From the NCBI GenBank assembly GCA_016183175.1, contig JACPFC010000003.1, positions 1 to 33,087 on the forward strand: a stretch of DNA of 33,087 nucleotides, given 5' to 3'. The notes under the pieces were generated by a model. The model worked only from the letters and a program-made list of their open reading frames with translations. It was not told the DNA's origin and did not search any database. Within the stretch, counting starts at the first letter, position 1. Each line of letters starts with the position of its first letter. Made by a program: the position numbers and the translations under genes. Shown here in pieces: positions 1 to 3,267 of the stretch. This DNA comes from Deltaproteobacteria bacterium (GTDB taxonomy: Bacteria; UBA10199; SBBF01).

Positions 1-195
1 GAAGTCGTCATTGAAGCTGATATCGTCCGCCAGCAGATCATCCCTTGTCAGGGAACCGGTGGTGGACAACAGGTCGTAATCACCGTCGGTTAAAGCGGAT
101 ATAGTGGACCCCAAAAACTGGACAGCAACCGACCCCTCAACTAGGGGGCTGGTGAACAGGATTAAAAACAGGATTTTCAGATGTCTTTTGTTCAT
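1..195 (-). CDS. Exported protein of unknown function, N-terminal part only
   Basis: The reverse complement has an ATG at 195-193 followed by 65 open codons that run off the window. The first residues, MNKRHLKILFLILFTSPLVEG, form a typical Sec signal peptide: a basic N-terminus, a hydrophobic core and small residues before the mature part. The visible mature part is acidic and rich in Asp, Thr, Ser and Leu, with no motif I recognise. It is transcribed divergently from the TIGR02147 regulator at 394. The ribosome binding site is weak (GGATAG about 4 bases upstream). The function cannot be assigned from this fragment. The call rests on the signal peptide and the uninterrupted frame. Confidence 0.6.
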   Translation of the reverse strand, partial: MNKRHLKILFLILFTSPLVEGSVAVQFLGSTISALTDGDYDLLSTTGSLTRDDLLADDISFNDDF

Positions 196-324
196 TTATC
201 TATCCAGACCCATGGCTTTGGCGCATTCCGGCGCCGATTCCCCTTAGACGACCGTTTGCCCCAATCGGTTCAATGATTATTATCGGCCATTGTCAAAAAA
301 AGTTGCTAAGTTTTTTTAACCGAT

Positions 325-340
325 GTTTTCTGTAGAAAAC
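325..340. promoter_or_regulatory. Palindromic putative operator, GTTTTC-N4-GAAAAC (copy 1)
   Basis: A perfect 6-bp inverted repeat, GTTTTC TGTA GAAAAC, ends 53 bases before the ATG of the regulator at 394. A possible extended -10 element (TGCTATCTT, 353-361) lies just downstream, so the palindrome would cover the -35 region. Nearly the same palindrome occurs at 2013-2028 upstream of another gene of this locus. The binding protein is not known. The HTH-bearing regulator encoded directly downstream is the obvious candidate, by inference. Confidence 0.5.
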
Positions 341-393
341 ACCTGTATATCATGCTATCTTTGGACCCATTGCTAAGGAGGCAAAGATAAACT

Positions 394-1224
394 ATGATTT
401 CAATCTACGACCATACGAACTACCGGGAATACCTGAAAAAGCGGTTCAATGAGCTGAAAAAGGAAAGGGACGACTTTTCGTACCGCGTCTTCAACCGGAA
501 GGCGGGAATCGCCTCGTCGGGATTTTTGAAAAACGTCGTCGACGGCAAGCGAAACCTGGCCACCGACGGCATCCGGAAGATCATTAAGGGCTTGGAACTC
601 AAACCCGACGAGGGAAAATATTTTGAAAGCCTGGTCCACTTCAATCAGGCCCAAAACCATGAAGACAAAGACCACTATTTTCAGGAACTGTTGGCAAACA
701 AGAGGTTTGTCCGGGCGCACCCGCTTACCGAGGCGCAATACAACCTCTTTTCGGAGTGGTATTATGTGGCCCTTCTGGAGCTGATCCGGCTGGAGAGCCG
801 CGAAACAAAGGATATCTTGTGGATTCAGAGGAGCTTAAGGGAAAATGTCCCTCTGTTGGACATTAAAAAGGCGGTCAAAGACTTGATCGAGCTGGGTCTT
901 GTCAAAGAAGGCAAACAGCTCTTACTAAGAAAGCAGACCATGCTCTCCACACCGGATGAGGTCAAATCGGTTTCGGTGGCCAATTTTCATTTTCAGATGG
1001 GCCAAATAGCCGCCAAGGCCTTGAAAGAGGACTCGCCGCAGGATCGCGAGTTTTCGGGGCTCACGGTGGCGCTCTCCGACACCGGCTTCGAAATCGCCAA
1101 AAAGGAACTCCAGAAATTCCGGCGGAAGCTTCATTCGCTTGTGGAAGAGGATACCGAGCATCCCAAAACCAACGTGGCGCATTTGAATTTACAGTTGTTT
1201 AAGATCAATCGAAAGGAAATATAA
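394..1224 (+). CDS. TIGR02147/DUF4423 family protein, putative HTH regulator
   Basis: This 276-residue protein matches the TIGR02147 (DUF4423) family: an opening like YDHTNYREYLKKRF, then an Xre-like helical segment at about residues 28-70 (SYRVFNRKAG, SSGFLKNVVDGKRNL, IRKIIKGLEL), then the conserved YFESLVHFNQA and SEWYYVALLEL segments. The family is common in Fibrobacter, Bdellovibrio and deltaproteobacterial lineages and often lies next to lipoprotein genes. Its biochemical role is poorly defined. A strong Shine-Dalgarno (AAGGAGG, 374-380) precedes the ATG. The next gene, a lipoprotein, starts 3 bases after the stop, so the two are probably co-transcribed. DNA binding and autoregulation through the palindrome at 325-340 are inferred from the HTH-like segment and the repeated site. 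Confidence 0.85.
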   Translation: MISIYDHTNYREYLKKRFNELKKERDDFSYRVFNRKAGIASSGFLKNVVDGKRNLATDGIRKIIKGLELKPDEGKYFESLVHFNQAQNHEDKDHYFQELLANKRFVRAHPLTEAQYNLFSEWYYVALLELIRLESRETKDILWIQRSLRENVPLLDIKKAVKDLIELGLVKEGKQLLLRKQTMLSTPDEVKSVSVANFHFQMGQIAAKALKEDSPQDREFSGLTVALSDTGFEIAKKELQKFRRKLHSLVEEDTEHPKTNVAHLNLQLFKINRKEI

Positions 1225-1227
1225 AAA

Positions 1228-2004
1228 GTGAAAGGGCGGTTCTACATCCGGCCGCTTCTCTTTTTTGCACTCATCGGCGGTTTCCTTGCCTGCACCGAAC
1301 AAAAAGGGGTGGAGGCGGGAAACCCGGATTTGACCGACACAAAAGTCCGGACGGTGACCTCCGACAGCACCGAAGTCTATTATGCAACCATCGAGGACGA
1401 GGACACACTGAGCATCGAACAGATCAGTGTTTCGGCGGATGGCCAAACCTCAGAAACCCTAGAGACGGTCACGACGTCTTATACCCAAAGTGAAAGCACC
1501 CTCACTTATAGTGCGGCCTTCACAAACCATAAAACAATCGAGGTCAGCGTAACCATCGATGACGAAACCGATACGGTGACGACCGGCTCTTTGACCCTCA
1601 ATGGCGAGACCAATTCAGCCACCTTCGATTTTGAGCCGACACTCAACCGTTGCCGTCGGGCTACCGATCATGCAGCGCGGCAGTTGCTTGAGGCGGGAGT
1701 CGACCGGCTTGTCGGCTGTTTTCCCCATAAAACCTGCTCGAACATCGGTGATGGCCTGGCCGATGTGATCAATCTGTCGGAAGAATTCGGCGGTCCGGCC
1801 GACACCAGCATGACCAATGTGATCGCGATGGTGGATGACGGATCGCTCATCGCCAATGAAACGAACCTCACAACCTGCCTTGCCGCCCTTGGGGAAATTA
1901 CCTGCGCCGATTTTGTCGGAGTTTTCGATCCGGCATTAGTTCCTCCCGATTTCAGCCAGATTCACACCCTCGTCCCCGCCGAATCGTGCAGTGAGGTGTT
2001 TTGA
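1228..2004 (+). CDS. Lipoprotein with GNP motif, paired with TIGR02147 regulator
   Basis: The start is GTG at 1228, 3 bases after the regulator stop, with AAAGGA about 10 bases upstream. The N-terminus has a signal peptide ending in a lipobox (GGFLAC), which predicts lipid attachment at Cys22. The mature protein begins with a short linker and VEAGNPDL. Lipoproteins carrying this type of GNP motif shortly after the lipidated Cys are, as I recall, common next to TIGR02147 genes. The middle (about 40-135) is Thr/Ser/Asp/Glu-rich and looks like beta-strand sequence. The C-terminal half has eight cysteines after residue 135, which suggests disulfides in an exported protein. No enzymatic motif is visible. 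It is probably a membrane-anchored surface or periplasmic protein; its function is unknown. Confidence 0.75.
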   Translation: MKGRFYIRPLLFFALIGGFLACTEQKGVEAGNPDLTDTKVRTVTSDSTEVYYATIEDEDTLSIEQISVSADGQTSETLETVTTSYTQSESTLTYSAAFTNHKTIEVSVTIDDETDTVTTGSLTLNGETNSATFDFEPTLNRCRRATDHAARQLLEAGVDRLVGCFPHKTCSNIGDGLADVINLSEEFGGPADTSMTNVIAMVDDGSLIANETNLTTCLAALGEITCADFVGVFDPALVPPDFSQIHTLVPAESCSEVF

Positions 2005-2012
2005 CATCACCT

Positions 2013-2028
2013 GTTTTCTCTGGAAAAC
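2013..2028. promoter_or_regulatory. Palindromic putative operator, GTTTTC-N4-GAAAAC (copy 2)
   Basis: GTTTTC TCTG GAAAAC repeats the arms of the palindrome at 325-340 exactly; only the 4-base spacer differs (TCTG against TGTA). It lies 9 bases after the lipoprotein stop and ends 66 bases before the ATG of the MopE-like gene. A TTGACA hexamer at 2001-2006 would place the palindrome between -35 and -10, although no good -10 follows at 17 bases. Repression or activation by the TIGR02147 protein is inference. Confidence 0.5.
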
Positions 2029-2094: not shown

Positions 2095-3267
2095 ATGACG
2101 TTTAAAAAATCATTATTCTGTTTTGTAATCGCCTTTTTGGCCTTTTATGCCGCCCCGGCGGCAGTGGCGCATATTGATGATGCCGACGGCGACGGGATTG
2201 AAGATTCCGCCGACAATTGCGCCTCCGACCCGAACATCAGCCAGGCGGACGACGACGGCGACGGCATCGGCAACGACTGCGACAACTGTTCTGCCGTCTC
2301 GAATGCCGATCAGACCGATGACGATGCCGACGGCGTGGGCGACTCCTGCGACCTCTGCCTTGGCCTTTCCAGCCCCGTCAATTATGACTTCGACGGTGAC
2401 GGCCTGGGTCGAAAGTGCGATAGCGACGATGACGGCGACGACGGTATTTTGGATGATGGGGACGGCTCGGGAAGTACGTCGGATAACTACTGCACCGGTG
2501 GTAATACGACAAGCTGTGATGACAACTGTACCGGAACCGCAAATGCCGATCAGACCGATTCCGACGGCGACGCCCCGGACAACACCCAAGACGGCCTAAG
2601 CGGCGGCGATGCCTGCGACCTGGATGACGACGGCGACGGCTGGAACGATACCACCGACAACAGCCCCACCGTTGCCAATGACGACCAGAGCGATGTCGAT
2701 CTCGATGGCTTTGGCGATGTGAGCGACAATTGTGCCTCCGATTCCAACAGCGATCAGGCGGACCTGGACGGCGACGGGATCGGCGATATCTGCGACTCGG
2801 ACGCCGATGGCGACGGCTACACGGCTGATGATGGCGACTGCGACAACGCCGATTCGTCGCTCAATCCGGGCGCCGAGGAGGTTTGCGATGACGGCATCGA
2901 CCAGGATTGCGACGACCTCGATACCTCCTGTGACGTAACCACCACTGACGTAACCACCACCACCGACGCCGATGGGGACGGATATACGGCGGAAAGCGAC
3001 GACTGCGACGATTCCAATGCCGATGTCCATCCCGATGCGGAGGAGGTGTGTGACGACGCCATCGACAATGACTGTGACGGCACGGCGGACAACGAAGAAG
3101 TCTGTCCTGTGAGCAACGAAAGCACCGACGAGAGCGCCGCGGAAGACGACGGCGGCTGTCAGCTCAACAAAGGCTCCCGGAACAGCGGCCTTGCCGGTCT
3201 CATCCTGTTGGCCCTCTCTCTGGCCTTGGTATCGATCGCAAGGCGAAAAACGATTTGCCGCGGATGA
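2095..3267 (+). CDS. MopE-like Asp-rich repeat protein with MYXO-CTERM-like anchor
   Basis: The ATG at 2095 is chosen because AAAGGAG (2083-2089) lies 5 bases upstream and a signal peptide (about residues 1-25, ending AAVA-H) follows directly. An in-frame TTG at 2080 is less likely. The body is a run of thrombospondin type-3-like calcium-binding repeats (DxDxDG..D.CP/A types: DADGDGIEDSADNC, DDDGDGIGNDCDNC). Two copies of the MopE-type metal-binding motif follow at about residues 236-280 and 291-338 (DADGDGYTA..DCDD ... PGAEEVCDDGIDQDCD). The last 38 residues contain GGC (Cys355), a short polar stretch, a hydrophobic helix and a basic ARRK end. This matches the MYXO-CTERM layout, in which a myxosortase processes the protein and the Cys anchors it. 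No myxosortase gene lies in this window. Predicted location: outer surface. Confidence 0.8.
   Translation: MTFKKSLFCFVIAFLAFYAAPAAVAHIDDADGDGIEDSADNCASDPNISQADDDGDGIGNDCDNCSAVSNADQTDDDADGVGDSCDLCLGLSSPVNYDFDGDGLGRKCDSDDDGDDGILDDGDGSGSTSDNYCTGGNTTSCDDNCTGTANADQTDSDGDAPDNTQDGLSGGDACDLDDDGDGWNDTTDNSPTVANDDQSDVDLDGFGDVSDNCASDSNSDQADLDGDGIGDICDSDADGDGYTADDGDCDNADSSLNPGAEEVCDDGIDQDCDDLDTSCDVTTTDVTTTTDADGDGYTAESDDCDDSNADVHPDAEEVCDDAIDNDCDGTADNEEVCPVSNESTDESAAEDDGGCQLNKGSRNSGLAGLILLALSLALVSIARRKTICRG

Follow-up and report, generated by a model that had tools for sequence, protein, structure and literature searches.

TIGR02147 proteins are, in our reading, DNA-binding regulators that recognize palindromes of the form GT-NNNC-N4/5-GNNN-AC through a two-residue code and act as class-I activators of their own operon and a small regulon, an account that we consider probable. 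Very probably, this family has as its DNA site the palindrome that is repeated in the stretch of DNA studied here. An N-terminal Xre-like helix-turn-helix, presumably dimeric, would read the 16- to 17-bp palindrome, with bases 3 and 4 of the half-site set by residues 42 and 43, where the recognition helix begins, so that each paralogue has its own operator. The -35 element would usually follow the palindrome at 18 bp, and sometimes at a distance longer by one helical turn. TIGR02147 would then activate its own operon, consisting of the regulator and a lipoprotein, and the GTTTTC paralogue of this genome would also activate a small, dispersed regulon with secreted-protein genes among its members. 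We infer binding, dimerization, and the direction of control from the distribution of the sites, their covariation with the recognition helix, the promoter spacing, and the operon structure, all of which were read from the sequences.

The NCBIfam entry TIGR02147 (Fsuc_second) is described merely as a paralogous family. No published function, target, partner, or mechanism of TIGR02147 was found in the literature searched, most subscription journals lying outside it, and DUF4423 was mentioned there a single time, in a proteome table. This large family would now gain a predicted operator and promoter geometry, a two-residue rule of specificity, and a conserved lipoprotein partner. Given the predicted operator and the rule, the sites of many uncharacterized members should be predictable from sequence.

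The palindrome and the TIGR02147 protein of the window

The window, meaning the whole 33,087-nucleotide stretch of DNA that was analyzed, is the entire contig C3 of a genome of 137 contigs and 2,349,109 bases. The initial annotation had described two palindromes with identical arms lying 53 to 66 bases before start codons, and both proved to be exact, with the gaps as described. Operator 1, GTTTTCTGTAGAAAAC, occupies positions 325 to 340, 53 bases before the ATG at 394; it extends to TGTTTTCTGTAGAAAACA and recurs before orthologues. Operator 2, GTTTTCTCTGGAAAAC, occupies positions 2013 to 2028, 66 bases before the ATG at 2095. No strand is assigned to either site. A third copy with one mismatch (1718 to 1733) falls within the lipoprotein coding sequence. 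Within the window alone the palindromes would not be convincing; there were six matches at two mismatches, compared to about three expected. Over the whole genome (2.35 Mb), GTTTTC-N4-GAAAAC has eight exact copies compared to about 0.14 expected (2.35 Mb/4^12), far above the background frequency. GTTTTCTNNNGAAAAC fits each of the eight in one or both orientations; its reversed control gave 0 matches. Six of the eight are paired (two on C3, C16 2247 and 3914, and C28 15684 and 19246), and the remaining two are on C47 and C96. As a separate observation, one distant genome (G053) carries 12 dispersed copies of GTTTTCTKRCGAAAAC, which resemble an unrelated repeat family.

The gene downstream of operator 1 (394 to 1224, plus strand) encodes a TIGR02147/DUF4423 regulator of 276 amino acids and is one of five TIGR02147 genes in this genome. 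The protein matched the TIGR02147 profile over its full length (residues 1 to 272; 220.8 bits, cut-off 50) and DUF4423 (PF14394) over residues 108 to 270 (112.9 bits, gathering score 30). A Pfam search of the protein gave no helix-turn-helix match, and a PDB sequence search gave no match. The AlphaFold model has a mean pLDDT of 89.5, with 91 to 96 in ten-residue blocks across residues 1 to 70. It places residues 42 and 43 just before and at the start of helix 44-49 of an N-terminal helix-turn-helix; the recognition-helix region comprises residues 41 to 49 (SSGFLKNVV; 514 to 540, plus strand), of which residues 42 and 43 (517 to 522) track half-site bases 3 and 4. Foldseek related the N-terminal domain to HigA/GraA with probabilities of 0.90 to 0.99 and TM scores by target of 0.55 to 0.60, but with E values of 0.2 to 0.7. 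TIGR02147 may resemble these Xre-type antitoxins in its predicted N-terminal fold and, as predicted here, in having a palindromic operator. In contrast to them, it is longer by about 190 residues, part of which is winged-helix-like; a lipoprotein gene rather than a toxin gene comes after it; and its operator is in a predicted activating position. TIGR02147 genes are especially numerous in the phylum of Candidatus Raymondbacteria, which we take to be Fibrobacterota, often with 10 to 46 copies per genome (maximum, 46 matches).

Operators before TIGR02147 genes and their match to the recognition helix

The recurrence of the palindrome before orthologues and its covariation with two recognition-helix residues strongly support the suggestion that TIGR02147 proteins bind such a site. 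Among orthologues (43 to 55% identity) in other families of the class, most have the same palindrome 70 to 220 bp before the start; it was exact in G008, G013, G017, and G023 and had one mismatch in G018, G021, and G043. In a second paralogue of G013 (L085, 51%), the site reads GTTATC..GATAAC, with the change in both arms. Three of the 12 close relatives (L035, L037, and L084) had no convincing site. The initial annotation had also proposed a scan upstream of TIGR02147 genes in related genomes. A total of 96 members of the class were fetched, and perfect 6-bp inverted repeats starting with GT, ending with AC, and having a spacer of 4 or 5 bases were counted in 40-bp bins over 92 genes. An enrichment was found: the -120 to -81 bin held such palindromes for 25 of the 92 genes, compared to 0 to 3 in the other bins between -480 and +480, and other dinucleotide anchors gave at most 5 in the same bin. 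A perfect operator was present in the searched interval for just 27 of the 96 members, and most Fibrobacter-type members had no operator of the GT-N4-(4/5)-N4-AC form.

The half-sites vary by subfamily (GTTTTC, GTATTC, GTGTTC, GTTTAC, GTTATC, GTACAC, GTACCC, and GTATAC). In the present genome, an operator precedes the gene or operon of each of the five paralogues, and no two of the five share a half-site. A single binding site for the whole TIGR02147 family was rejected on this ground, and given that each paralogue would read its own half-site, GTTTTC is expected to be the site of one subfamily rather than of the family. The operators of the other four paralogues are single-copy in the genome. 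Of the only four places in the 2.35 Mb where the degenerate pattern GTRYWCNNNNGWRYAC occurs, three precede the C58, C73, and C95 paralogues, and their half-sites all differ. For the fifth paralogue, on C4, GTATTC was predicted from its recognition residues (SPNF) and then found ahead of the operon, in which the TIGR02147 gene is the second gene. This site is the sole copy of GTATTCTNNNAGAATAC in the genome, and 10 of the 12 copies among the 46 genomes of the class precede TIGR02147 genes or their operon. Such paralogues would form a natural set for studying how helix-turn-helix binding sites diversify without cross-talk.

We compared 38 operators, including four from the Raymondbacteria phylum and leaving out G264, with every column of the protein alignment (276 positions) by mutual information. 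Residue 42 ranked first for half-site base 3 (z of 12.8; next best, 6.4), and residue 43 ranked first for base 4 (z of 4.6). An A at base 3 was present in 20 of the 20 operators of members with P42 and in 2 of the 18 without it (Fisher p of 7e-9, phylogeny ignored). With the helix columns left out of the tree, P42 changed nine times and A3 seven times, and the two were concordant in 39 of 41 cases. The palindrome, therefore, both lies before the regulator's own gene or operon and co-varies with its recognition helix. By sequence comparison, the rule for residues 42 and 43 held in other phyla. In Raymondbacteria (G060) and genomes of the same phylum, SPSV was paired with GTACAC, SPSL with GTACTC, APNF with GTATTC, and SPSF, twice, with GTACAC; loci from other phyla comprised L157 and L308 (APNF, GTATTC), L153 and L183 (SPSV/SPSF, GTACAC), and L154 (SPSL, GTACTC). 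A further distant genome, G264, combined APNF with GTATTC and had a TTG exactly 18 bp on. L197 (GTATTC without P42) and L135 are exceptions. Given that the operator is missing in most Fibrobacter-type members, the rule is not established for the whole family.

Promoter geometry and the direction of control

When 27 operators were picked by the palindrome alone, 14 had TTG or GCAAC exactly at +18, compared to a mean per offset of 0.63. Two kinds of promoter were present downstream: TTGNNN-N17-TANNNT, which is sigma70-like, and GCAACTT-N13/14-CCGATAA, which has a sigma28-like -10. The genome holds 47 exact copies of GCAACTT-N13-CCGATAA, usually GCCGATAA, and these form, judged by their sequence, a large predicted alternative-sigma promoter class. 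GCCGATAA as a -10 is the FliA consensus. These promoters have this -10 in common with sigma28 (FliA/WhiG) promoters but carry GCAACTT rather than TAAAGTTT at -35, and the best match to a FliA_WhiG sigma factor in the genome scored 76.8 bits (cut-off, 189.6). In this genome, a perfect promoter follows at 18 bp for the sites on C3 (minus strand), C16 (2247), and C28 (15684) and at 28 bp for that at 19246 on C28. Copies of the palindrome before secreted-protein or lipoprotein genes of G004 and G018 have promoter spacings of 18, 28, and 29 bp. The spacing of the C4 operon operator is 9 bp, off the 18-bp rule. The sigma70-type promoters of L016, L116, L107, L119, L105, and L123 end 6 to 7 nt before the ATG, and their mRNAs are, thus, probably leaderless. 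An A/T-rich element like AWATANTTATAA was also seen about 8 bp upstream of many sigma70-type operators (L016, L098, L107, L116, L119, and L125); we make no claim for it because of its low information content.

A distance of 18 bp between the end of the operator and the -35 puts the operator center about 61 bp before the predicted start. The operators are, thus, upstream of the -35 and helically phased (18 or 28 bp), which is a class-I position, and from about -61 or -71 TIGR02147 would most likely be a class-I activator. Class-I activation of the CRP type offers a comparison, as its operator likewise has its center near -61 or, with an added turn, at -71. TIGR02147 differs from CRP in being an unrelated protein and in acting, as predicted, at promoters of two kinds, sigma70-like and sigma28-like.

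We considered that TIGR02147 could bind the palindrome and yet repress, as a classic autorepressor, for instance by forming a loop or by occluding an undetected promoter. Xre-like regulators usually act by autorepression, and so do the HigA/GraA antitoxins, which appear to be the nearest folds in the structural model. The operators, however, lie upstream of the -35 at exactly 18 or 28 bp and not over the -35/-10 or the start, and the 28-bp alternative, being one extra helical turn, suggests contact with RNA polymerase, and hence activation, from one face of the DNA. Repression is, thus, unlikely in our view; it had been the default reading and was dropped on the 18-bp spacing between operator and -35. 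By operator geometry, activation is the most likely direction.

It is considerably less probable that a different regulator binds the palindromes and that TIGR02147 genes are merely frequent targets of it. Such a regulator would fit the six of eight sites in this genome that lie on contigs without a TIGR02147 gene; however, half-sites differ among paralogues of the same genome and co-vary with TIGR02147 residues 42 and 43 over several independent changes, and the remaining operators in the genome are single-copy. We give almost no credence to chance palindromes or RNA hairpins, such as terminators or leader structures. Short A/T-rich palindromes are common, as the excess of two-mismatch matches in the window illustrates, but the sites are rare genome-wide and have a fixed position and a fixed promoter spacing. 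Being upstream of the predicted transcription start, they would not be transcribed from those promoters, which argues against hairpins. The bin enrichment, the single-copy operators, and the +18 spacing contradict both forms of this reading.

Targets in this genome and the lipoprotein partner

Operator 1 appears to point no less clearly to the divergent secreted-protein gene than to TIGR02147. A GCAACTT-N13-CCGATAA promoter with the sigma28-like -10 (280 to 306, minus strand; one of the 47 exact copies) begins exactly 18 bp from the operator. It faces a gene that is cut by the contig end and of which the 5' part is present (1 to 195, minus strand); the encoded protein starts like a signal peptide (MNKRHLKILFLILFTSPLVEG...), and the gene is the probable target. 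No promoter was recognized at +18 towards the TIGR02147 gene of the window; autoregulation there is, therefore, proposed from the orthologues. Operator 2 has as its candidate target a gene for a secreted protein with MopE motifs and thrombospondin type 3 repeats (2095 to 3267, plus strand). The protein matched Cu-binding_MopE in two stretches (53 bits, compared to 27) and TSP_3 (31.2, compared to 25), which places it by profile match in the MopE-motif family, with putative copper binding. The best promoter match downstream of operator 2 falls at +18 but scores 9/14, a typical random maximum, so that the proposed control of this gene depends on the exact operator alone.

The initial annotation had further suggested that the family controls surface-protein genes, and this was borne out in part. 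Four of the eight sites are followed at 18 or 28 bp by a perfect alternative-sigma promoter, and one of the four genes that these would drive, the secreted-protein gene behind the promoter at 280 to 306, has a recognizable signal peptide. The other three promoters would drive two paralogous long ORFs without a signal peptide and a 203-amino-acid ORF. The long ORFs are the tandem C28 targets (L022, 1-3575 and 4581-7127), whose N-termini are nearly identical and which each follow a GTTTTC operator; one has helicase and HNH-repeat domains, and the second is its paralogue. The predicted regulon is, thus, not purely one of surface proteins. At the other four sites (that of the MopE-like gene, C16 3914, C47, and C96), a recognizable promoter was absent at 18 or 28 bp; those on C47 and C96 precede 173-amino-acid genes with signal-peptide-like starts.

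The conserved partner of TIGR02147 is a lipoprotein. In the window, a gene for a Cys-lipoprotein with the motif GVEAGNP after its lipobox (1228 to 2004, plus strand) begins 3 nt after the TIGR02147 gene. An ORF with a hydrophobic N-terminus followed TIGR02147 in 81 of the 91 class members having enough downstream sequence (heuristic scan), and a simple pattern recognized a lipobox in 60, often with a 4-nt overlap with the stop codon. A lipoprotein was seen at 22 of 36 loci of the Raymondbacteria phylum, a related TGN motif being present in many of these, and L308 and L315 likewise show a lipoprotein after TIGR02147. Tentatively, and with more doubt than confidence, we suggest that TIGR02147 and the lipoprotein translationally coupled to it make up a two-gene module of the envelope that is widespread and could work as a signaling loop, in which the state of the envelope or lipoprotein would be fed back to an activator with a DNA specificity that diverges by the two-residue code. 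If so, genomes with dozens of copies would run many insulated lipoprotein switches. A G-x-E-x-G-N-P-like motif after the lipobox Cys is common to the partner lipoproteins (window, 1228 to 2004; L030-L150 and L152-L189), with forms such as GTETGNP or GIEVGNP directly after the Cys in many of them, and is possibly a sorting or export signal.
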